This document shows positions 3,475 through 63,104 of a stretch of DNA of 64,000 nucleotides, piece by piece. Origin of the DNA: a bacterium (lineage in GTDB: Bacteria > Planctomycetota > SZUA-567). Below the pieces are notes generated by a model that ran no database searches, was not told the DNA's origin, and saw only the letters and a list, made by a program, of their open reading frames with translations. Every line of letters begins with the position of its first letter. The stretch's first letter is position 1. The stretch spans positions 62,001 to 126,000 of the forward strand of contig QKCJ01000038.1 of the NCBI GenBank assembly GCA_003245715.1. Direction: 5' to 3'. Position numbers and translations under genes: made by a program.

Positions 3475-6400
3475 ATGAAAAAAATACCCGTATTTTTTGT
3501 GGTTGCGTTGATTGCTTTTGGTGCGATAGCGCAGGAGAGAGAGCACGCTGCTGAATATTATTTAGTTCCTCAGGCTGAAAGGGGCGTTGTCTGGATCAAG
3601 GATATCAAAAATAAGAAGGTTGTAACTGGTATTTCGGTACAGCCTAAATCATCCTTCAGCGATTTAAAATATAAACTTGAAAACGACGTTATTGAAATTG
3701 ACACAAGAGACCTGATTAAGAATAACCCTAAAGCAGTTGTTTGCCTAAGGTACAACGCCATCACTTACTCGCAAAGCGATAATCTTAAAAAATGTTTTGT
3801 GCAGGTTAAGGCTGGTTCTACGCCGGCAAATACAAAGCTGCGTTTGTTCTTCGAGGGGGCAACAGGCAAAGATAACAAACATTATTGGAAAGCAAAAAAC
3901 ATTGCGCTTCCGGCAGATCCTGCTGTTGTGCGGTTCGAGCAGAATCTCCCAAAGGATTTGGCCTCTCTTCATATTCGCTGCGATTTATTAAGCTCTGGTG
4001 TGTATAAGCTGTCAGATTTTTCGTTTGGTGTCTGTGAAGAATCTGTGATTGATGAAAGCAAAAACCAGATAATTAATGGTGGGGCGGAAGCAGGTTTTTA
4101 TAATACAGCGCTGATTGGCAAGGATGTTTTGGTGAAACCTGCAGAAGGTGTTTCATATGATGGGCGGGGGCGTAGCTTTGATAAGTTTTGCACTTTGGAA
4201 ATAGATTCGACAACTAAACATTCCGGGAAGAGTTCATTTAAGTTCGTCTCTGAAAAAGGGAGCGTTGGCTCATTTGTATTTAATTCGTTAAAATTTTTGG
4301 TGGGCAAGCCAGCCTGTTTTTCTGTTTGGATAAAAGCGGAGAAACCCAAAACGAAAGTATCGCTTACCCTGTATTTGTCATCGGGTATTGCCTATGTAAA
4401 AGAAGTTACAGCTGACACTGACTGGAAGCAGTATGTTTTAATGATCCCAACGTGGGGGGATAACGCTCCTAGCGTAACGAAAATTAATGATGTTGTCGGT
4501 AGCTCAGGAGCCTTGTATGGCGAGGTGATGCCAAGGATAAGTGCAAAGTCAACAATTTGGATAGACGATGCGGGTTTTTGCCTTGGCCGCGATCCTTATA
4601 GCCTGAATGCAAAACCATCAGTTATTGCATCCGCAAAACTTGATAATGACAGTAGCGTATATGATAGTGGCGCGAAGGTTGCAGCAGATTTCAAATTGTA
4701 TTCACCTGTTGATAAAGAAGTAAAGGTTTCATGGCGGCTTAAAGATTATGACGGCAAGACCGTAATGTCTAAAGAACTGCCTGAAATTAAACTGCAGGGC
4801 GGCAAAGATATTGCCTGGCATACAGACTTAATGCCTCCGGCTGGTTTGAGGGGTGCGCTTAACTGGTGTTTTAATATTGATGGGCAAGCGTATAATTTTT
4901 ACCTTGGTATTAATCCTGAAACTTTGAAACAGAATAAAAAACTGGGCATCAACTTTATGTCCCGGCAGAATACTGACATGGCGATTAAGCTTCTCAAAAA
5001 ATTCAGGTTCGGCAGTGTGCGCTTATGGTCGGCTTTTCGAGAACTTCCTTATCAAGGATTTACGGATGTTAAGGATTTCCATGACAATAACTTCTATGTG
5101 ATGATGTGCCTTAGTAATAGTGTCGTTGCGCCAAGATATTTTGTTCCGGTGGATTTTACCGAATATAAAAAATTGCTTAAAGAGCAGGCTGTTAAGGCCA
5201 AGGGATTGGTTGATTCTTATGAAATGCTTAATGAGCCTAATATCTGGACTGGCAGGGTGAGAAATCCTGATCCGGCAAAATATCAGGAAATGACCCCGAG
5301 GGCTAACGCGATGTTTATTGAAGCGTCAGCTTCGGTGCTGAAAAACGTTGATGATAAAGTAAAAATTGCCGGTCCGACAACCTGCCACACAGATATTGTC
5401 TGGACGGAGAATGTGCTGGCGGCAGGAGCTGCGAAAGATCTTGATATAATCTCTGAGCATCCTTATCGTGAAATCCCTGAACTGCCTGATTATGAAGAAG
5501 ACCTTGACCGTTTGAAAAATACGGCTGCAAGGTATGGCAATAAATTCAGTTTTGTTGCTTCTGAAGCCGGTGCGGTTGCGGTATCACATCCGGCTAACAA
5601 CCTGATTGATAATTCGATGCGTGACCAGATCTGGTACAATACACGAATGATGATTATCGGCTGGGCAAACGGTGTTGATAAGTACTATCATTTTTCAATG
5701 ACCCTTGACGATTTTGGGACTTCCTGGTGTATGTCAAAGCTTGGCAATCCTAATAATAATTGCCAGTCATTTCCAATGCCGGTAATGTATGCTCTGTCTT
5801 TTGCTTCAGATATTCTTGATGATTACAAACCGGAAGCACGAGTTAAAATCGGAATAAATCGCAGGGCATATGTTTTCTCCAAAGATGATGAGCGTGTGGT
5901 TGCTCTCTGGAAGTGGAACGGCGATGAGGAGAAAATGTATTTCAAGCCGGAACTGTCGGATAAAATTCAAGCCTATGATGTAATGGGTACTCCTATCCCT
6001 GCGAACAACATTATGCTCAATAAATTCCCGGTATATTTGCGCACAAATCTCTCCTTTAAGCAGATTGAGGAAAGTCTTATTAGTGCTCTTGCACAACCAG
6101 AGGGAGAATTGTTTGTTCCGGAGTTGATCATTACCGGTGCCAAAGAATTTAAAATTAATCTTAAAAACCGTACAGGTAAACCTCTTGAAGCGGAGATTAT
6201 TTCCTTAGGTAAAAACATCACAAAAAGCAGTGCTGATGGATACGTTAATATTGCGCCGGAAAGTTTTGCTTCTTTCACCTTTAATACGGTATCTGTTATT
6301 TCAACTTCTGAGCATCCGGCTAAATTTGAAGTTCGGACTAAAGGCAATAAAGTACAGAAAATAGATTACAATCTTCGCGCGTTGCTGGTTACGCGGCGAG

Positions 6401-7041
6401 TTAATGATATCATTATTGATGGCAAAACCGCTGATTGGAATGATTATCCAGAGCTGATGGTTCTGACAAACAAAAATGCCGTAAAACTTAAAGGCTGGGA
6501 CAAAAAGGAAGATAAGCTTACGGCCAAACTGAAAATGGCGTGGGACGATGATTATCTTTATCTGGCGTTTATAACCAATAAACCTGAATATGTGGCAAAC
6601 AATATTGCGCCTGGAGGAATGTGGAAGTTTGACAGTATCCAGATTGCCTTTGATCCACTGAAAAATGCTGCGGCAAATCAGCTTGGTTATCAGGATGACG
6701 ATTACGAATTTTCTGCCGGAGTATTTAATGACAAGCCGCTGGTATTCATGCATCGCTCTGCTGCTGCCACGTATGATAGTGTGAATAAGCCAGCGGGTAT
6801 TGTTGAAAGTGTTAAGTCTGCAGTCAGAACCGATGAAAATGGCAACACGGTTTATGAGTTGGCTTTCCCAAAATTACTGGTCAGCCCGTTCCGTCTTGAG
6901 GCTGGTTCGAGCATGCGCTTCAATCTGTTACTGAATATAAATAATGGAAAACAGCGCGTAGGTTGGCTGGAGCTGACCCCGGGGATCGGCTCAGCCCCGA
7001 AGAAGCCAGGAGCGTTTATGGGGCTGGTGCTGATTAAATAA
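3475..7041 (+). CDS. Secreted multidomain glycoside hydrolase with CBM-like domains
   Basis: 1188 residues from ATG 3475 (AAAGG seven bases upstream; an earlier ATG at 3445 would spoil the signal peptide). MKKIPVFFVVALIAFGAIAQ is a clear signal peptide. Residues ~200-370 resemble a galactose-binding CBM fold (GGAEAGF..SGKSSFKF). A TIM-barrel, clan GH-A-like region spans ~490-780, with YEMLNEPN near 581-588 (acid/base Glu in NEP) and FVASEAG near 697 (possible nucleophile). The last ~210 residues, from IIIDGKTADWNDYPEL, look like a CBM9/DOMON-type sugar-binding module. It probably degrades a polysaccharide outside the inner membrane. The exact GH family is not recognised. A strong terminator follows. 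Confidence 0.7.
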   Translation: MKKIPVFFVVALIAFGAIAQEREHAAEYYLVPQAERGVVWIKDIKNKKVVTGISVQPKSSFSDLKYKLENDVIEIDTRDLIKNNPKAVVCLRYNAITYSQSDNLKKCFVQVKAGSTPANTKLRLFFEGATGKDNKHYWKAKNIALPADPAVVRFEQNLPKDLASLHIRCDLLSSGVYKLSDFSFGVCEESVIDESKNQIINGGAEAGFYNTALIGKDVLVKPAEGVSYDGRGRSFDKFCTLEIDSTTKHSGKSSFKFVSEKGSVGSFVFNSLKFLVGKPACFSVWIKAEKPKTKVSLTLYLSSGIAYVKEVTADTDWKQYVLMIPTWGDNAPSVTKINDVVGSSGALYGEVMPRISAKSTIWIDDAGFCLGRDPYSLNAKPSVIASAKLDNDSSVYDSGAKVAADFKLYSPVDKEVKVSWRLKDYDGKTVMSKELPEIKLQGGKDIAWHTDLMPPAGLRGALNWCFNIDGQAYNFYLGINPETLKQNKKLGINFMSRQNTDMAIKLLKKFRFGSVRLWSAFRELPYQGFTDVKDFHDNNFYVMMCLSNSVVAPRYFVPVDFTEYKKLLKEQAVKAKGLVDSYEMLNEPNIWTGRVRNPDPAKYQEMTPRANAMFIEASASVLKNVDDKVKIAGPTTCHTDIVWTENVLAAGAAKDLDIISEHPYREIPELPDYEEDLDRLKNTAARYGNKFSFVASEAGAVAVSHPANNLIDNSMRDQIWYNTRMMIIGWANGVDKYYHFSMTLDDFGTSWCMSKLGNPNNNCQSFPMPVMYALSFASDILDDYKPEARVKIGINRRAYVFSKDDERVVALWKWNGDEEKMYFKPELSDKIQAYDVMGTPIPANNIMLNKFPVYLRTNLSFKQIEESLISALAQPEGELFVPELIITGAKEFKINLKNRTGKPLEAEIISLGKNITKSSADGYVNIAPESFASFTFNTVSVISTSEHPAKFEVRTKGNKVQKIDYNLRALLVTRRVNDIIIDGKTADWNDYPELMVLTNKNAVKLKGWDKKEDKLTAKLKMAWDDDYLYLAFITNKPEYVANNIAPGGMWKFDSIQIAFDPLKNAAANQLGYQDDDYEFSAGVFNDKPLVFMHRSAAATYDSVNKPAGIVESVKSAVRTDENGNTVYELAFPKLLVSPFRLEAGSSMRFNLLLNINNGKQRVGWLELTPGIGSAPKKPGAFMGLVLIK

Positions 7042-7083
7042 ATACTTGTTTTGGCATAGCTAAAACTATTTCTAAAATAAGCG

Positions 7084-7120
7084 AGCCGCAGGTATTTATA
7101 AACCTGCGGCTTTTTTTTTT
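7084..7120 (+). terminator. Rho-independent terminator after the glycosidase gene
   Basis: AGCCGCAGGT pairs with ACCTGCGGCT around an 8-base loop and is followed by a run of ten T. It ends the AraC-divergent glycan run and separates it from the convergent ppk gene. Confidence 0.92.
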
Positions 7121-7146
7121 AACGTTGAACATTTTTGGCGTTAAGA

Positions 7147-9285
7147 TCACACCGATGATTTAGCCACAAACATACCTTCCGCAGTGCGGCTGCGGTTTTG
7201 GGTTTTATTGCAGGCTTTGTTGTAAATAAATTCCTGACTGCGCAGTTGTTTGGCTTTCTTCTCAGGCATCTCAACGCGTTTATAAGAGCCGTCCTCCTGC
7301 ATTTGCCATGCCTTGACATTGTCAGAAAATCCTGCATCAAGGTTTTCAATTGCCTGCTTTTTGCAGATCGGGTCAATGATCGGGAACATTAATTCAAGAC
7401 GCATGTCGAAGTTTCGTTCCATCCAGTCAGCACTGGCCAGATAAACTTCTTCGTTGCCACCATTGTTGAAATAGAAGATACGTGGGTGTTCGAGGTACCT
7501 GTCGAGAATACTGAATACGCGGATATTTTCAGAAAGATTTTTGACTCCTGCGCGCAGACGGCAAAGTCCTCTGACGAGAAGGTCAATTTTTACGCCTTTG
7601 CATGAAGCGGCATAGAGAGCCTTGATTACATCCGGGTCGACAAGCGAATTCATCTTGGCGCGGATGCGGCCGGGTGATTCCGGAGTGTGAACCTCCATCT
7701 CGCGCTTTATCATTGTAAGGATGGTTTTACGAAGTCTTGTCGGCGCCATAGTCAGGCAATTCCAGCGCGGTGGCAGGGAGTAGCCTGTAATCACGTTAAA
7801 GAAACCGGATACGTCCTGCCCGATTTCCGGGCGGGTAGTAAAGAGTCCGAGGTCTGTATAAAGCTTGGCTGTTTTGTCGTTATAATTTCCCGTTCCAAGG
7901 TGGACATAGCGCCGGATGCCGTCTTTTTCCTTGCGGACAACAAGGAGTACTTTGCTGTGGGTCTTGTAGCCGACTACACCATAAATTACGTGCGCCCCGG
8001 CTGAATCAAGGGCTTTCGCCCAGCCGATATTGGCCGCTTCATCAAATCTGGCGCGAAGCTCAACAAGCGCGGTGACCTGCTTTCCGGTCTGTGCGGCATG
8101 GATAAGGGCCTGAACCAGCGGGCTTGCACCTGATACGCGGTAAAGGGTTATCTTGATTGCCAGAACATCAGGATCGTTTGAAGCTTTGCGGACCAGCTCA
8201 ACAACGGGATCAAATTTCTGGTAAGGCAGGCTCAGAAGATTATCGCTTTTTCGCATAACCTCGAAGATGTCACCGGAAGATAATTTCGGGTGGTCTTGCG
8301 CCGGCCATGGTTTCTCAATCAGATCAGGCCGGTCAACCTGTCCAATGAAGCCGAAGAAGCTTGATAATTCCAGAAGCCAGGGCAGACGAAAAATCTGCCT
8401 CTGATCGTTTACGCCAAGTTTTGTGCGCAGATAGGAGAGAATTTCTTCCGGCATGTCATCAGAGATTTCAAGGGTAATCGGATCACCCCAGCGCCGGCTG
8501 CGCACCGCTTCGTCAATTGCCCCAAGCAGATCGTCCGCAGATTCGTCATCAACAACCATCTCCGCGTCGCGCAGCAGCCTGAAGGCATACGCCCCTTCAA
8601 TCTCATAACCGCCCAACAGGTTCTTTGAATAAAGCCTGATGATGTCATCAAGCGCCGCCATTCTGACCTTTGAGTCGTTTGATGGCAATGTTATAAAACG
8701 GTGCATTGAGGTAGGCATCTGGACAAGCACAGTATCTGTTTTGTTGAAAAACATCTTGCCCTGCTCAACTGGCGCCACCCTGAAGAGCAGGTAAACCTTG
8801 CCACTGGCAAGAAGCGGGAACGGGTGTCCGGGATCTACCGCCATAGGGGTGATCGCCGGGGCGATATTTCCCTCATAGAAAGAGCTGAGAAACTCCTTGT
8901 CATCAGTTGTGAAGTCTGACGGGCGTACAAGTGAAATATTGTTTTCAGACAGCTGGGGCAGAACTTCATTGAAAAGGCAGTCATACTGTCGTTTGACCAT
9001 TGCATGTTTCTTCTCGGCCATACCTTCAAGTACCTGATCAGGAGAAAGCCCGGCCACATCGGTAGCGTGAACCCCCTCGCGTTTCAGGCGGATCATATTG
9101 GCAATTCGGACGGTTGTGAATTCATCCAGATTTGATGAGACAATGGCGATAAATTTAAGTCTGTCAAGAACCGGAACCTGCGAGTTTTCTGCTTCAGCCA
9201 GAACCCGGAAGTTGAAATCCAACCAGCTCAGTTCACGGTTGAGAAAGTTCTGCGGGGCGCCAAAATCATGATCTTCTTTGCTCAT
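7147..9285 (-). CDS. ppk1: Polyphosphate kinase 1
   Basis: 712 residues from ATG 9285; the open frame extends further but MSKEDHDF..NRELSWLDFNFRVL is the normal N-terminus. PPK1 makes polyphosphate from ATP, reversibly, at the membrane. Seen: NRELSWLDFN at the N-terminus, KTHSKVLLV with the likely phospho-accepting His near 443, LGTGNYN just after, and HPRIFYFNNGG..YLASADWMERN with the second active-site His near 601. The spacing matches E. coli His435/His592. It starts 4 bases after the stop of the exopolyphosphatase gene, so synthesis and breakdown enzymes are translated from one message. Confidence 0.96.
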   Translation of the reverse strand: MSKEDHDFGAPQNFLNRELSWLDFNFRVLAEAENSQVPVLDRLKFIAIVSSNLDEFTTVRIANMIRLKREGVHATDVAGLSPDQVLEGMAEKKHAMVKRQYDCLFNEVLPQLSENNISLVRPSDFTTDDKEFLSSFYEGNIAPAITPMAVDPGHPFPLLASGKVYLLFRVAPVEQGKMFFNKTDTVLVQMPTSMHRFITLPSNDSKVRMAALDDIIRLYSKNLLGGYEIEGAYAFRLLRDAEMVVDDESADDLLGAIDEAVRSRRWGDPITLEISDDMPEEILSYLRTKLGVNDQRQIFRLPWLLELSSFFGFIGQVDRPDLIEKPWPAQDHPKLSSGDIFEVMRKSDNLLSLPYQKFDPVVELVRKASNDPDVLAIKITLYRVSGASPLVQALIHAAQTGKQVTALVELRARFDEAANIGWAKALDSAGAHVIYGVVGYKTHSKVLLVVRKEKDGIRRYVHLGTGNYNDKTAKLYTDLGLFTTRPEIGQDVSGFFNVITGYSLPPRWNCLTMAPTRLRKTILTMIKREMEVHTPESPGRIRAKMNSLVDPDVIKALYAASCKGVKIDLLVRGLCRLRAGVKNLSENIRVFSILDRYLEHPRIFYFNNGGNEEVYLASADWMERNFDMRLELMFPIIDPICKKQAIENLDAGFSDNVKAWQMQEDGSYKRVEMPEKKAKQLRSQEFIYNKACNKTQNRSRTAEGMFVAKSSV

Positions 9286-56015: not shown

Positions 56016-56092
56016 GCGCCCGTGGCCTAATTGGATATGGCATCTGACTACGGATCAGAAGATTAGGGGTTCGAATCCTCTCGGGCGTGCCA
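56016..56092 (+). tRNA. tRNA-Arg (anticodon ACG)
   Basis: 77 bases with encoded CCA. Acceptor GCGCCCG pairs with CGGGCGT (G1-U72 wobble), D arm GCC-GGC, anticodon stem TCTGA/TCAGA with loop CTACGGA, and T arm AGGGG-TTCGAAT-CCTCT. The ACG anticodon would become ICG by TadA. Its 3' half is duplicated at 57914, marking an integration site. Confidence 0.96.
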
Positions 56093-56193
56093 AATATTTA
56101 AACCCGCAAGTGTCTGTCAATTCAGGACTTGCGGGTTTTTGTTTAGTGAAATTCTGGATTTTTTGTAGTAATAAAAGTTTACTCGAAATGGCA
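56045..56193 (+). repeat. Direct repeat copy 1 (tRNA 3' half plus terminator), attL-like
   Basis: Begins TGACTACGG inside the tRNA anticodon arm and runs 149 bases to AAATGGCA. It matches 57914-58062 with no gaps: the first 87 bases are identical and about 12 differences fall in the last 62. It may be attL of an integrated element, or the product of a tandem duplication. Confidence 0.85.
56100..56140 (+). terminator. Terminator of the tRNA-Arg gene
   Basis: AAACCCGCAAGT pairs with ACTTGCGGGTTT around 15 bases, with trailing T. A second copy at 57969-58009 carries one C to T change that keeps a G-U pair. Confidence 0.85.
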
Positions 56194-56234
56194 TTAAATG
56201 GTACTGCGTTGCATAGAGATGTGAGTAGTTTTGA

Positions 56235-57652
56235 CCTACGCAGTAAAGAGTAACATGGTAAACTTCGGCTTTAGGCAGCCGTTTTGAAAAATAATTAGTT
56301 GTCCCACGGGTGAACTTGCCCGTGCAAAAGCGTCACAAAAATATCCTACGTTGATATATTCGCTGTTTGATAATCTGACTATACGAAAACCAACCTGCAC
56401 TATGGCAGGTGGAATTGGCGAACACAATATTGGTCTGCATTTACGCAGCCTGATTATCTTGATCATCTTCAAGGTAATAATGCTTGAGTAGTCCTCCGAG
56501 GAACTTCCGGCACTTTACCTTGCTTGCATCAAACTTCTCGGGGTATGAAAAGTCAGGCGAGATGACTCTGTTATCCAACGATTGATGTGGCCGACAGTTG
56601 TTGTAATACTCAAGATGCTGTGCGACAATCCTATTGAGCTGCCCGAGACTAAAGCAGACAAAGCTGTTTAAACACTCACGTTTGAAGTGCGAGAAATAGC
56701 TCTCGATGTATCCGTTCTGGGCAGGGCAGCGGATGGCAGTCCTAATTACCTTGCCGTCCTTCCCCGGTGGAGAAGAAGTGTCAATGATTCTTTGGAAGAA
56801 GTCGTCAAAGCGCGGTGTATATTTACCGTCATTGTCGCGTATTAAAAAGCGCAGCTTGATCCCTTCGTCATCAAGCCAGCCAGCGACGTTGCGAGCCTGC
56901 TGCAGCAGCCATTCTTCGTCTGGATTGTACGTCGGTGGTGAAACATAAACACGACGCGAAGCGTAATGGATGAAGGCTATGCAGTATGCATCAAATCTAC
57001 CACGAAGGGTATAAATCGACTTTGATACCAGATCGCAGGAGACCATGGTTGACATGTTGCATTTAACAAAGTTTGCCCAGTTGCTGACCGGCGCGTTCTT
57101 TGTCCTGTTGGGTGGCGGTGTGATACCGTTCTCCCGACAAACCTTGAGTATGGTAGTACCGGATAGTTTTATGTTGAGCTTCATTAATTCACCAACGATT
57201 CGCAATAGTCCCCAACCAGGATTCTCCTTGACGAACCGGATGATCAGGGCTACAATCTGGTCACTAAGTTTGCGCTTGCGACCGGGTCTCTTAATCGGTT
57301 TATGGTTACGTCTGCGCCGCAGCCAGTTTTCATAGGTTCGGGGTTTGACGATCAGGATGCAGTCATCAACCTCGTGGTTCATGGTCTGTCCGATATCAAG
57401 CAGCTTCTCAATTTCTGCAGCGGTGGCGATGATGCGGGTCTTATCCAGACTTTCGAGCACGCGTAACAGGATGAAAACTTGAGCCCTGTAGAACGCTGCT
57501 CGTTTCTGTTCGACGGCTGGCAGTGAACCGATGATTTTCGTATAGATCAGGTGTTGAAGTTTTGACATTTTGCTCAGTTTCTATGTTTGAGTGATTTTTA
57601 AAGAAGTGCCGAGTAGAGAAGAAGTTAGGTATGTTGTTCTTTACTGCGTAGG
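56235..57652 (-). mobile_element. Insertion sequence with rve-type transposase
   Basis: About 1.42 kb bounded by 15-base perfect inverted repeats CCTACGCAGTAAAGA (56235-56249 and 57638-57652). One transposase gene inside. No target duplication is obvious at the ends. It lies inside the segment between the two tRNA repeats, so it may be a passenger rather than the element that used the tRNA. Confidence 0.75.
56441..57568 (-). CDS. DDE transposase, integrase (rve) core
   Basis: 375 residues. N-terminal helix-turn-helix region (RPGRKRKLSDQIVALIIRFVKENPGWGLLRIVGELMKL). Catalytic acids: Asp in MVSCDLVSK, Asp in IRDNDGKYT and Glu in NGYIESYFSHFKREC, with the usual HLEYYNNCRPHQSLD near the end. Resembles IS481/IS3-like integrase-core transposases. 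Intact and full length. Precise IS family not assigned. Confidence 0.88.
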   Translation of the reverse strand: MSKLQHLIYTKIIGSLPAVEQKRAAFYRAQVFILLRVLESLDKTRIIATAAEIEKLLDIGQTMNHEVDDCILIVKPRTYENWLRRRRNHKPIKRPGRKRKLSDQIVALIIRFVKENPGWGLLRIVGELMKLNIKLSGTTILKVCRENGITPPPNRTKNAPVSNWANFVKCNMSTMVSCDLVSKSIYTLRGRFDAYCIAFIHYASRRVYVSPPTYNPDEEWLLQQARNVAGWLDDEGIKLRFLIRDNDGKYTPRFDDFFQRIIDTSSPPGKDGKVIRTAIRCPAQNGYIESYFSHFKRECLNSFVCFSLGQLNRIVAQHLEYYNNCRPHQSLDNRVISPDFSYPEKFDASKVKCRKFLGGLLKHYYLEDDQDNQAA

Positions 57653-57913
57653 CACGAAAGAAGTGATTATAGGCGCTGCCTTAGTGAGCTCAATATTTAT
57701 GGTTAAGTTTCTGGTAGATGTTGTGGCTAAGCGAGCGACTGATAGAGTTGTCTAGCTATGACTCGTACCTAAAAAAAGATGTACGCCTTGAGTGCCTCTA
57801 AATTGCATTACCTTGCATTGTTATGCATCCTTACTGTGCAAGCAAATGACAAAGCGAGCTTTCTAAAAACCTATAATTCCTTGGTGTTAAATGACTTGTG
57901 GTTTTGTGGTGAT
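57653..57913. other. Non-coding segment between the IS and the second tRNA repeat
   Basis: 261 bases without a gene. Contains several TGCATT/TGCAT words (57800-57830), which could be arm-type integrase sites, but this is weak. Also AAATTGCATT resembles the flank 56186-56215 (AAATGGCATTAAATGG). Confidence 0.4.
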
Positions 57914-58062
57914 TGACTACGGATCAGAAGATTAGGGGTTCGAATCCTCTCGGGCGTGCCAAATATTTAAACCCGCAAGTGTCTGTCAATTCAGGACTTG
58001 TGGGTTTTTCTTTGGTAGGATTTTGGATTTTGCGTAGTAATAAAAAATTACTCTAAATGGCA
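57914..58062 (+). repeat. Direct repeat copy 2 (tRNA 3' fragment), attR-like
   Basis: Starts with 48 bases of the tRNA-Arg 3' half (57914-57961), including CCA, then the terminator. Not a functional tRNA: the 5' half is absent. Its similarity to copy 1 ends exactly at 58062, one base before the IS256-like fragment begins. Confidence 0.85.
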
Positions 58063-58181
58063 GAGAAGCAGAACAACGATGCGGCCAGACCAACTTTGGT
58101 CGGATAGCCCCCATGGGGGCTATAACCCTGGACTTTCTTTTTCTTTGTTAAATGAATTTGCGAAACTTTCTTGACACTACC
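58063..58181 (+). mobile_element. Terminal fragment of an IS256-like element
   Basis: 119 bases matching 61892-62010 in reverse orientation with a single mismatch. It contains the last codons of the transposase (KQNNDAARPTLVG, stop), the 20-base palindrome ATAGCCCCCATGGGGGCTAT (58104-58123) and the terminal sequence to CTTGACACTACC. The rest of the element is lacking here. Confidence 0.85.
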
Positions 58182-58779: not shown

Positions 58780-59125
58780 ATGAATTACTGGTTCACCAAC
58801 AATTCTTAATAAGCCACACGCCGGATTCTCCTTGATGAATCGAGCTATCAACTGTATAATCTTTTCAGGTATCCTAATCGGGTTGGGAAAGCGTATCTTG
58901 CGGCTCGGACGTTTGATGGACTCGCCTTCGTTTCAACGACACAGCCAGGTCTTATCTTGTAGACGGTTTGGCCAGCAGCATCAGTTCTGTGGCATTATGA
59001 TCTAGTAGCCGCCCTGCGCCAACAGCTGGTCGATCTCTTTCTGTGTTGCGTAGACTCGCTCGATACCTGTATCCTTGCGGTTGTATTTCAAAACCGTCTG
59101 TGAATAAAGAAGTTGCATTGGCAGT
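58780..59125 (-). pseudogene. Decayed relic of an rve-type transposase, paralogue of the IS at 56235
   Basis: Fragments in shifting frames match the intact transposase at 57568-56441. SIKRPSRKIRF and EKIIQLIARFIKENPACGLLRIVGE match KPIKRPGRKRKLSDQIVALIIRFVKENPGWGLLRIVGE; GIERVYATQKEIDQLLAQGG matches TRIIATAAEIEKLLDIGQ. Stops (…GGY, stop) and lost segments mean it is not functional. The stretch 58506-58779 shows no clear gene. Confidence 0.6.
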
Positions 59126-59217
59126 TGTTGGGAGGATAGAACGATACCTGAACAGGGCTGGTTAAGTTTCCGTTCAGGACTTTAATCTAATATTTCAATT
59201 ATCAAGAGGGGGATAAC

Positions 59218-61836
59218 TTGGATTACCAAAGTCAATTAAGCCAGATAGATGAACTTATCTGTAGTAAGGATTTGGGGAAAGCAATTTCTGCTTTGCTTAA
59301 CATTATATCACAAGCACCGGAATTGTCTGCAGCGTATGAAAAACTTGTCGAACTGTCTCTCACTACAGGACAGTTTGAGCAAGCTATTACTTATTTTGAA
59401 TTAGCACATGCTAAACTACCTTATATAAATCTAACAACTTATATTTCTATCATAAAATTTTTGATCCATTCAAAACGCATTGTTGAAGCCAAAAGGGTTT
59501 TAGTTATCGGTCTGGAACGTTATCCTCAAGATCAGCAACTTCTTAAATTGCAGGAAGAAGTTTTATTCCCAAATAAGTTCGATGTTCAATCAAATGCTCA
59601 GAAGAATGTGAAACACACTATTCAACAAGCTGCGCAGTTTTTTGAACTTGATGCAAAATTTACTCGTCTTCCTTCAAATGCCAAAATTGCTTATCTGGGA
59701 AATCTAAACGGTATTCCACTAATTGCAGAAGCGATCAAAGCATTCCGGCCTGATATTATTAATGAAATATGCATTGATATTTCTCCTAAATCGCCCTATA
59801 TTGGCAAGCCTTTTGAGCATAGTTTATTCAACATCATCGGATTGAATGCTGTCAAAAGCCAAAACAATAAAGTTGATACATATATTTCGGTTGGGAGCAC
59901 TTCTGAGCATGCCAAGGGAATGGCTGATTTTATGATACAGAATTGTGGTCTTGAAAATGAAAACATTTCAATCTTTTTGCTTCCTTCGTCAAATATCCCT
60001 GATCCTGTTACAAGCATTGATTATGATATTCTTTCGAAAACTCAATTGGGCGGTTCTGACCTCTATTTTCATTCAGTTCAGAAATTATACCCTGAGAGCA
60101 GCCCAAACTTCAATAACTATCAGGATTTTTTGCGTGATTTCTATCCACATGTTGCGTCCTCGACTTATTTTCATGCTTTCAGTAGAATCTATCAGAGCAG
60201 GGCACTTCTCGTGTTGATTCATTATGATTCTGAAAAAATATATAATAGTAATTCATCTGCGCTTAATCTTTGCAAGGATAGATGGGAGGTGCTTGATGAA
60301 GAGCATATTCAAAACATGTGGGGGGATATTGATTATTGCACCTCAGATTACGTAAAATCAATTGCAACCCTGCCAACGGCCATTAAGACCCGCAATGGAA
60401 TTGTTTTAAACGATATGGAAAATACATGGGTTACAATAAAGAATGGATACCGCACGACAACTGGCGTTCCAGAGGAACACGATAATTCAATATATTTACT
60501 GGGTAATTGCCTGGCTTATTCTCCAGGAACTGAAGATCGGCATACAATGGCCAGTTTTCTTCAGGCAAGAATAAATGAAGATCACATTCTTAGTTGCAAA
60601 TATGGGGTATATAATCGAGGGATACCTGGTATCTCTTATGATCAGGCATTATATCAGTTATACACGACAGAACTTGAAGAAAAAGATGTTGTGGTTATGC
60701 GTGTTGATAAAAATAATTTTGAAGTAATCAAAAAAGCTGCGATGAACTTTGATAATATCTTCCTGCTTGATATTGGAGATGACCTTCGGCTCATTCCTGA
60801 AAAAATGTTTTGGGATGGCTGGCACTGGACGTACCGACTGTGTTCGCAGCAGGCAGATATTCTTTATGGTTGTTTGCAATATATCTACAGGCGGATTGTT
60901 GATGGTAGCGTTTGGTTTCGTCAACCTCAACAACTCAACGATTATTGCTATAATTCACAATTGGCTGAATATTGGTTTGATTTACAGAAAAAAAATTACG
61001 AAAAAACCGATGAAGAATTACTGCAATATCTCGAAGAACTCAAAACTATTTCGCTCAAGCCTGGTATTACAGGAAGTATTGTAATGAACTGTAATCCATT
61101 TACTAAAGGCCATCGTTATCTGATAGAATATGCCTCAGGTAGGGTGGATAACCTGATTATTTTTGTGGTTGAAGAAGATAAATCATTTTTCAAATTTACG
61201 GATCGAATTGAACTTGTTAAGGACGGGACATCTGATCTTGCTAATGTCACAGTAATACCGAGCGGCAAATTTATTATTTCTTCAATAACATTTCCTGGAT
61301 ATTTCAATAAGGAAGCTCCTGATAGTTTTACAATCAATGCTGCAAGTGATTTGGAAACCTTTGGGAAATTTATTGCTCCCACTGTCAATATTACACAGCG
61401 CTTTGTTGGAGAAGAGCCCAACTGCCATATTACACGGCAGTACAATGAACAAATGCATAAATATCTTAAGCCTTTAGGCATTAATGTTATTGAAATACCT
61501 AGAGTTGAAACCGAGGGGAAAGCAATCAGCGCAACATTAGTTAGGAATTATATTCTTTATTACTATTGTTTTTGTCACTTTCTTTGCGACCAAACGCCAC
61601 AACAGCATAAAAAAACAGAATCGCTTATTTCTGAGGGTGATTTCAATGAGTTGCTAAAAATAATTCCACATCACCTATACGAGAAAGCTAAAAATGAATT
61701 AATGCATATAGACGAAAAGTTATCAGAAAGTACGGATTCCCCGGAACTATCCCAAGAAATCCTCAAACATCTCAAAGAAATAGTACCTGACTCAACGTTA
61801 CGTTTTCTCGCGGATCGTTTTTTTTCTAGTTTCTAA
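59218..61836 (+). CDS. TPR / SGNH-like / citrate-lyase-ligase-type nucleotidyltransferase fusion
   Basis: 872 residues from TTG 59218 with AGGGGG six bases upstream. TPR-like helices occupy ~1-115 (AYEKLVELSLTTGQFEQAITYFELA). A Rossmann-like part lies near 150-270 (AKIAYLGNLNGIPLIAEAIKAF). A segment at ~425-560 has YLLGNCLAYSPGTEDRHTMASFLQ, NRGIPGISYDQALYQLY and FWDGWHWTYR, which fits an SGNH-hydrolase-like fold with Cys where the nucleophile Ser is expected. Residues ~618-780 match the CitC ligase catalytic region: SIVMNCNPFTKGHRYLIEYAS (HxGH-type), VVEEDKSFF, TFPGYFNKE, RFVGEEPNC and ISATLVR (ISxTxxR). The gene is AT-richer than its neighbours and bracketed by inverted IS256 ends. Likely activates or attaches an acyl or sugar group; the substrate is unknown. 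Confidence 0.72.
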   Translation: MDYQSQLSQIDELICSKDLGKAISALLNIISQAPELSAAYEKLVELSLTTGQFEQAITYFELAHAKLPYINLTTYISIIKFLIHSKRIVEAKRVLVIGLERYPQDQQLLKLQEEVLFPNKFDVQSNAQKNVKHTIQQAAQFFELDAKFTRLPSNAKIAYLGNLNGIPLIAEAIKAFRPDIINEICIDISPKSPYIGKPFEHSLFNIIGLNAVKSQNNKVDTYISVGSTSEHAKGMADFMIQNCGLENENISIFLLPSSNIPDPVTSIDYDILSKTQLGGSDLYFHSVQKLYPESSPNFNNYQDFLRDFYPHVASSTYFHAFSRIYQSRALLVLIHYDSEKIYNSNSSALNLCKDRWEVLDEEHIQNMWGDIDYCTSDYVKSIATLPTAIKTRNGIVLNDMENTWVTIKNGYRTTTGVPEEHDNSIYLLGNCLAYSPGTEDRHTMASFLQARINEDHILSCKYGVYNRGIPGISYDQALYQLYTTELEEKDVVVMRVDKNNFEVIKKAAMNFDNIFLLDIGDDLRLIPEKMFWDGWHWTYRLCSQQADILYGCLQYIYRRIVDGSVWFRQPQQLNDYCYNSQLAEYWFDLQKKNYEKTDEELLQYLEELKTISLKPGITGSIVMNCNPFTKGHRYLIEYASGRVDNLIIFVVEEDKSFFKFTDRIELVKDGTSDLANVTVIPSGKFIISSITFPGYFNKEAPDSFTINAASDLETFGKFIAPTVNITQRFVGEEPNCHITRQYNEQMHKYLKPLGINVIEIPRVETEGKAISATLVRNYILYYYCFCHFLCDQTPQQHKKTESLISEGDFNELLKIIPHHLYEKAKNELMHIDEKLSESTDSPELSQEILKHLKEIVPDSTLRFLADRFFSSF

Positions 61837-61965
61837 TACCTGAATCCGTGAGCTTTTGCTCTAATATTGTTTGGTACTTCCGTAATTAAGCGGTAGTGTC
61901 AAGAAAGTTTCGCAAATTCATTTAACAAAGAAAAAGAAAGTCCAGGGTTATAGCCCCCATGGGGG

Positions 61966-62286
61966 CTATCCGGCCAAAGTTGGTCTGGCCGCATCGTTGT
62001 TCTGCTTCTCCTCCTTTCCGTCCTCTTCTGTATCAAATTTCAAATACCGTTTCAATCCCCACTTCGTTCCGGCAACATGCCGCAATCTTGCCGCTACAAG
62101 CATCAGAGCACTTTTATCGTCAGGGAAGTTGCCGACCACCCGTGTCATTCTTATAACCTCACGGATCACCCGCTCCAACGGATTGTTCGTTCGGATCTTC
62201 CTCCAGTGGCTGCGGGGATATTTCATGTACGTCAACGTCTCAGCCGCACTCTCCCTGACATGTTCTGCTGCCTTACCAAGTTTCAT
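61966..62286 (-). pseudogene. IS256-family transposase, C-terminal part
   Basis: 106 codons from ATG 62286: MKLGKAAEHVRESAAETLTYM, KYPRSHWRKIRTNNPLERVIREVIRMTR, VVGNFPDDKSALMLVAARLRHVAG, the standard C-terminus of mutator transposases, including the catalytic-region NNPLERVIRE. It overlaps the N-terminal part by four bases (ATGA) in another frame. In relatives these are one chain, so a one-base deletion before the ATG is the likely cause. Confidence 0.8.
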
Positions 62287-63104
62287 CGTTTGAGTTTGGC
62301 GACTACAGCAATTACTTTCTCATCCGCTGCCGCACGGTCTTCCTGCGCATGGATCGCCTTAAGCATTGCTGCAACTTCTTTAGTTTTACTCTTTGGTACA
62401 TTCTTAAGAATGTTGCGATACCAATGAACAGTGCAGCGCCGCCAGTCGGTTTCGGGGAACACTTCCGCCAGCGCCTCAACCAAGCCTAAACACTTATCAC
62501 TGGTCACCAGTTGAGGTGGCTTGAGTCCACGCTCCTTAAGGTGCTTGAGGAAATCCAGCCAGCCTTCCTTGTCTTCCTTGCAGCCTTCGACCGTACCAAG
62601 AACTTCACGGTAGCCATCCTGATCTACCCCAACAGCAATCAGTACGGCGACATTTTTCACCTCACCGCCCCAGCTGCTTTTGAACCACATCCCGTCGAGC
62701 GCAACGTATTTATATTTGCCTGTAAGTGCCCGGTTGCGCCACTGTTCAATTCGTTCATACGCCTTCTGATTGAGCTTGCTGACCGTGCTAGGGCTGACCT
62801 TCTCGCCCCACAACGCTTCGGTGATATCTTCCACTCTCCTTACCGAAACACCGGCAAGGTACATTTCAATCAACGCCTCCTCAACACTGCACTCACGGCG
62901 ACGATAACGCTCAATGATGGCGCTCTCAAAAGGCAATGACCTGAGCTTGGGAACCTGCAGCGTCACCGTGCCTGCTTTCGTCTGCAATTTCCTGTCTCGC
63001 TTGCCGCAACGGTAATCTTTGCGTTCAGCATTGCGCTCATACCGTTTTGCTCCACATAGACGGTCAGCTTCTTCAACAAGCAAGGTGTTGAGTGTTTCCT
63101 CCAC
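62283..63104 (-). pseudogene. IS256-family transposase, N-terminal part
   Basis: 273 codons from GTG 63104 (AAGGGA just upstream; a TAA blocks the frame 12 codons before). Motifs: VPKLRSLPFESAIIERYRRRE, YLAGVSVRRVEDITEALWG, the first catalytic Asp in YVALDGMWFKSSW, the second near VTSDKCLGLVEAL, and the mutator signature WRRCTVHWYRNIL. Ends KLKR, stop, at the frame break. Together with the C-part it would be about 380 residues, normal for IS256. Confidence 0.82.

Follow-up and report, generated by a model that had tools for sequence, protein, structure and literature searches.

A direct repeat of a tRNA-Arg 3′ half bordering an intact DDE insertion sequence: a probable derivative of a tRNA-integrated element

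Genomic islands classically dock at tRNA genes, and insertion sequences (ISs) are usually held to reach such islands by chance. In the islands formed by tyrosine integrases, as set out in the pertinent passages of PMC8371274, the anticodon loop and its flanking stem match the canonical overlap and core, and a repeat that starts in the anticodon arm while the tRNA remains complete is the product of these enzymes. Islands lacking an integration module are also on record: part of the account in PMC3146451 concerns 15 ssrA islands of this kind in Dehalococcoides, suggested there to be cis-mobilizable elements. We describe a locus in a 64-kb stretch of bacterial DNA (the window) that touches on both. 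It resembles the tRNA-targeted tyrosine-recombinase islands in its repeated tRNA 3′ half, its intact tRNA and its site at the anticodon arm. It differs from them in that the interval is devoid of an integrase gene and consists of an IS and a tail, and in that the repeat includes the terminator and flanking sequence. With the cis-mobilizable elements it shares an interval that is flanked by att-like repeats and has no integration module, whereas its content, a DDE IS plus tail, sets it apart from the Dehalococcoides islands. The IS itself is like members of IS481 and IS3 in having a single rve transposase, terminal inverted repeats and a length of about 1.4 kb; unlike them, it lies below both NCBIfam cut-offs and its right side extends into a tRNA-bearing tail. 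An IS that carries a tRNA arm was not met with in the open-access literature, as judged by titles and the openings of abstracts. We consider it probable (roughly 0.7) that the two repeat copies are attL and attR of a tRNA-Arg integrative element that has been reduced to the IS and the attR arm, its recombinase either lost or acting in trans.

The tRNA-Arg gene, its repeat and the interval

ARAGORN assigned tRNA-Arg (acg) as the sole tRNA gene of the window, and Rfam agreed on this gene with 61.2 bits (Table 1). The 3′ part of the gene recurs downstream in a direct repeat of 149 nt, in which 137 positions are identical (92%) and 12 are mismatched. The first mismatch is at 56132, so that the first 87 nt form an identical run; the longest exact repeat met in 200 first-order Markov sequences for the same 4.5 kb is 15 nt. 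A direct repeat of a tRNA 3′ part is therefore present at both ends of the interval, as in tRNA-integrated islands. It starts within the 5′ strand of the anticodon stem, from where it spans the rest of the tRNA, the CCA and a terminator hairpin that is strong in each copy (−23.1 and −21.2 kcal/mol; z −6.9 and −6.3); a simple terminator scan did not list this hairpin. An earlier note on this DNA had proposed the tRNA gene and the 149-base repeat with its 87 identical bases, on which ARAGORN, Rfam and the alignment agree. The start in the anticodon arm and the inclusion of CCA and terminator, also proposed there, likewise hold. The distance of 1.87 kb that the same note placed between the copies is in fact the start-to-start spacing (1,869 nt); the DNA between them amounts to 1,720 nt. 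The left copy extends beyond 149 nt, in that the related contig L015 matches it to about 56208 (165 columns, 93%).

Table 1. Features of the repeat-bounded interval and its right flank (window coordinates)
Feature	Position	Strand	Remarks
Intact tRNA-Arg(ACG), CCA encoded	56016–56092	+	ARAGORN and Rfam
Repeat copy 1 (putative attL side)	56045–56193	+	Anticodon stem to CCA, terminator, flank
Spacer, about 25 nt, from repeat copy 1 to IS left end	56209–56234		L015 homology ends at about 56208 and restarts at 56232
Insertion sequence, 1,418 bp	56235–57652	−	Terminal inverted repeats 56235–56266 / 57621–57652
DDE transposase, 375 aa, intact	56441–57568	−	rve_3/rve_2 core; HTH_32 just under cut-off
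Right tail, non-coding, 261 nt, between IS and repeat copy 2	57653–57913		
Repeat copy 2 (putative attR side)	57914–58062	+	tRNA-Arg 3′ half and terminator, without the 5′ half
IS256-like (Transposase_mut) end fragment, 119 nt	58063–58181	−	99% identical to the inverse of 61892–62010
Remnant of a second rve element, broken and with stops	58793–59139	−	Closest to the first C11 copy in L009 (75%)

The absence of a tyrosine integrase from the interval had been recognized and holds; what had been missed is that the interval codes for a DDE transposase. The terminal inverted repeats of the IS are imperfect, with 26 of 32 positions identical. Among NCBIfam families the transposase is nearest to IS481 and IS3, and it falls below the cut-offs of both (79.7 bits against 224 for IS481; 64.4 bits against 160 for IS3). 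An alignment of 10 sequences, the window transposase among them, shows no variation at Asp179, Asp245, Asp247 and Glu289, and a catalytic D-D-E triad among such residues is typical of DDE enzymes. The rve core with conserved D, D and E and the terminal inverted repeats together mark the element as a DDE insertion sequence. No target-site duplication was seen by eye in the copies inspected, whose true right ends are uncertain.

The dN/dS ratio of the transposase is 0.058 against the copy in L015 (373 codons) and 0.079 against the second copy on contig C11 of the same genome (153 codons); selection therefore maintained the transposase for most of the time since the copies parted. The L015 copy no longer keeps a single open frame. 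Decay of the window transposase is ruled out by the two ratios, and judging from the sequence this gene is intact and under purifying selection. Decay of the island is thus not the whole story, given such a transposase and an interval that recurs elsewhere as a unit.

The tail is common to L015 along its full length, most weakly over 57861–57913 (74%), and two parts of it, 57653–57730 and 57759–57826, are also found in the C11 copies. It contains no convincing arm-type repeats of the sort used by integrases. The IS256-like fragment begins exactly where repeat copy 2 ends. Further along the right flank, the IS256-like (Mutator) transposase of which this fragment is an end piece is split into two frames at 61966–63104 (−). 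An 872-aa open reading frame at 59218–61836 (+), with a TTG start, matches TPR families weakly and a citrate lyase ligase C-terminal domain with 204 bits.

Related units and tRNA loci

A scan of the genome collection returned one locus, L015, in an assembly labelled Desulfobulbaceae. It aligns with window positions 56232–58060 at 89% over 1,833 columns, inclusive of the tail and the tRNA-Arg half. Its left flank differs, being taken up by the 3′ end of a different gene (ORF 5317–7161; an alpha-galactosidase by eye), and ARAGORN found no tRNA gene on its 9.1 kb. This contig (C139 of G149) encodes a prepilin-like protein and large proteins that by eye resemble glycoside hydrolases, as does contig C11 of the window's genome, and under its Desulfobulbaceae label it is possibly misbinned. 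We reject a tandem duplication because the interval and the second tRNA half are found in another assembly, and we reject a target-site duplication by a DDE enzyme, which would here be about 150 nt long, because other copies have the tRNA half but lack the corresponding tRNA to their left. Five tRNA-Arg(ACG) loci of relatives were inspected; each contains a single copy of the anticodon arm of this gene, in other gene neighbourhoods, and a syntenic empty site was not found.

Within the window's own genome, contig C11 holds two further copies of the IS, with 68% and 94% likeness at the DNA level, the latter truncated where the contig ends. Each copy continues into a tRNA-Lys 3′ half, which is decayed in the first and followed by terminator-like sequence in the second. 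The second tRNA-Lys half and its flank match the tRNA-Lys(CTT) locus on contig C10 at 98.4% over 127 nt. At C10 the full tRNA-Lys gene has a well-folding terminator and is followed by a PF00589 tyrosine integrase of 371 aa; C10 and C11 appear to hold the attL and attR of one tRNA-Lys island, its ends on separate contigs. In this genome 8 of the 34 tRNA genes are followed, no more than 2 kb past their 3′ end, by a PF00589 match, and none has such a match upstream only; islands of this type are therefore common here. These integrase-associated tRNA genes, together with the similarly long tRNA-Lys repeat, sustain the earlier assignment of the window repeat to attL and attR at a tRNA. As to the remark that the repeat exceeds usual att cores, the length is not unique in this genome, because the tRNA-Lys pair reaches 127 nt at 98%.

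Several other tRNA loci deserve mention in their own right. At about 198–100 (−) of contig C22 of G000 (L014), a lone tRNA-Arg(TCT) 3′ half with terminator-like sequence lies some 170 nt downstream of an intact tRNA-Phe gene; the full tRNA-Arg(TCT) gene is on C43. Beside integrases, the 5′ side of the anticodon arm is copied 238 nt downstream of the tRNA's own for a tRNA-Met (L124, 3917–4191), and about 240 nt downstream, by eye, for a tRNA-Lys (L100, 4714–4970). L124 also contains, at 4219–8533, a small integrative element at tRNA-Met with an integrase, a P4-family primase and a MerR/excisionase-like gene, and an rve unit adjoins this element in inverted orientation.

The genome G095 presents, within 3.8 kb of a single contig and in this order, tRNA-Arg(TCG), a tyrosine integrase (409 aa), a 221-aa gene without a Pfam or NCBIfam family match, an rve gene (354 aa) and, last, 20 nt that repeat the anticodon arm without a mismatch (L119). 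Three full-length copies from this genome were compared: L119 and L134 end in the arm, and L135 stops before it, at another left end. The 12 kb of L134 contain no tRNA gene. A pattern search of G095 that allowed one mismatch returned 11 places, the tRNA-Arg(TCG) gene itself included. Besides that gene, six places have the GGTCTTCGGAACCGG core, those of L119 and L134 among them, and five of the six match at least 48 nt of the right end of the unit. Place 818647 is preceded by tRNA-like sequence and its right-end match is of 34 nt only. Four places have a different core, two of which were inspected further.

Two units on different contigs of G020 are 89% alike from the left end to a tRNA-Arg(CCT) arm, and both end in the arm; the last 114 bp of one are present in tandem. 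ARAGORN detected no tRNA gene in the 15 kb around each of them. G020 also has two short, MITE-like derivatives of about 230 bp (L169 and L183), which look alike inside and have the tRNA-Arg(CCT) arm at one end. They retain 70 bp of the left end and, arm included, about the last 140 bp, whereas the middle is absent. One of them runs on into the full tRNA 3′ half and 31 nt of native flank. In the same genome the 3′ end and terminator of a tRNA-His gene recur 18 kb from the gene itself, an rve gene adjoining this distal copy; an open reading frame by the tRNA-His (L117:8927–9385) has no Pfam family match. Elsewhere, a tRNA-Met half (G006) and a T-arm end (G022) occupy the same side of the element, and in G104 and G133 the tRNA 3′ pieces are on the left side instead. 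In G072, G047, G120 and G045 the distant homologs have the look of plain ISs or are without a tRNA. Viral contigs yielded no relative in a search for close relatives, phages yielded none, and the 90 plasmid records were all below 60% identity.

Association of the element with tRNA arms

The extent of the association was gauged on 45 full-length rve reading frames, a subset of the known places in which better matches and multi-copy genomes were preferred. The queries were 70 distinct tRNA 3′ parts, and matches of at least 32 bits were sought up to 700 nt upstream of the transposase start. A tRNA arm was present on the right side, on the outward-pointing strand, in 7 of the 45 cases and on the other strand in none; 38 of the 45 had no right-side arm at the 32-bit threshold. 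All seven matches start no later than position six of the anticodon arm, either in the 5′ stem strand or at the first loop base. For the background, 473,134 bases from 48 loci, remote from rve genes and tRNAs, gave two matches over both strands, one of them another copy of the G095 right end; this corresponds to 0.07 expected. The seven cases represent five lineages, since in two instances a pair of copies of one element type shares a genome; the Arg and Lys types of the window's genome are counted apart. On the left side of the reading frames, four of 45 had same-strand matches (two of these being full tRNA genes) and one of 45 an other-strand match. At 2,000–2,700 nt upstream of the transposase start, one of 45 matched.

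At the level of the class, 18 matches were found in 8 of 29 genomes. Eight of the 18 have a clear tRNA-derived right end (C1, C2 and C3:351 of G020; G006; G022; C8 and two on C11 of G000). The right end is weak in two, at G019 (14 nt) and at C13 of G000 (tRNA-Gly-like, by eye). The other eight are without a tRNA right end (three in G001, G021, C3:367 of G020, C41 of G000 and two in G026, of which C262 was left uninspected). These eight and the arm-less distant homologs rule out the arm as a trait of the whole family.

Origin of the locus and its meaning

If an element integrated into tRNA-Arg(ACG), the intact tRNA would be attL and the 3′ half attR, and the crossover would have fallen in the anticodon arm. 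The element would have brought its own 3′ half and terminator, by which the tRNA stayed whole. Between the two copies lies the IS481/IS3-like element with its intact DDE transposase, joined to what would be the attR-side tail of the integrated element. The recombinase gene would most likely have been lost through a deletion that stopped at the left end of the IS, or have always been supplied in trans. The repeat, the IS, the recurrence of IS, tail and tRNA half, and the integrases at sister tRNA loci are observed; the enzyme behind the window repeat and the order of events we infer. We describe the window unit as a probable derivative of a tRNA-integrated element and not as a complete member, because the recombinase gene, present at C10 and in G095, is absent from its interior. 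The IS left end coincides, within a few bases, with the border of homology in the eight copies for which the left end is available (the window, L015, the first on C11, two in G020 and three in G095). This border fits an IS-driven deletion of the integrase side, a known process, or transposition from the left end.

Simple integration is opposed by the copies of G020 and G095, which keep the arm away from any detected tRNA gene. Because integration into tRNA genes alone fails for these scattered copies, we entertain a bolder reading with two chemistries, although only tentatively. A DDE transposon family might have taken up a tRNA-derived att site as one of its ends, its own transposase spreading the unit to ordinary sites and tyrosine integrases, adjacent or elsewhere, homing it into tRNA genes. 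It is equally conjectural that the lineages would then carry different tRNAs (Arg-ACG, Lys-CTT, Met, Arg-TCG and Arg-CCT). A further proposal, which we hold to be rather unlikely, is that the DDE transposase moves a unit with the left end of the IS at one side and the tRNA piece at the other, and that a unit with the tRNA-Arg 3′ half landed beside tRNA-Arg or recombined with it by homology. Homology does begin at the IS left end in the eight copies and in the two short G020 derivatives as well, and the right border is at or past the tRNA arm in most copies. The arm, however, is outside the IS's own right inverted repeat, the right ends hold varying lengths of tRNA (with L135 of G095 stopping short of the arm), and target-site duplications were not seen by eye. 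Moreover, DDE target duplications are much shorter than the window repeat, which far exceeds them.

Less probable again is an ordinary IS that prefers attR or tRNA 3′ ends and sits in otherwise unrelated islands. The G020 rve gene by the distant tRNA-His 3′-end copy could be cited for it, no integrase having been found there with an integrase profile whose narrowness makes such absence weak evidence; so could the left-sided tRNA 3′ pieces of G104 and G133 and the resemblance of the distant homologs to plain ISs. It is contradicted in G020 and G095, where tail and arm accompany the IS at several loci. That the arrangement is a local duplication or a misassembly seems very improbable: the genome is a draft in 63 contigs, but the IS, the tail and the tRNA-Arg half stand in the same arrangement in another assembly.

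If true, a recurrent coupling, in fixed orientation, of a DDE IS to the tRNA end of an island would be a simple route for islands to lose or borrow an integrase, and it would also scatter attachment sites round the genome. For annotators, an att-flanked interval without an integrase is not necessarily dead.
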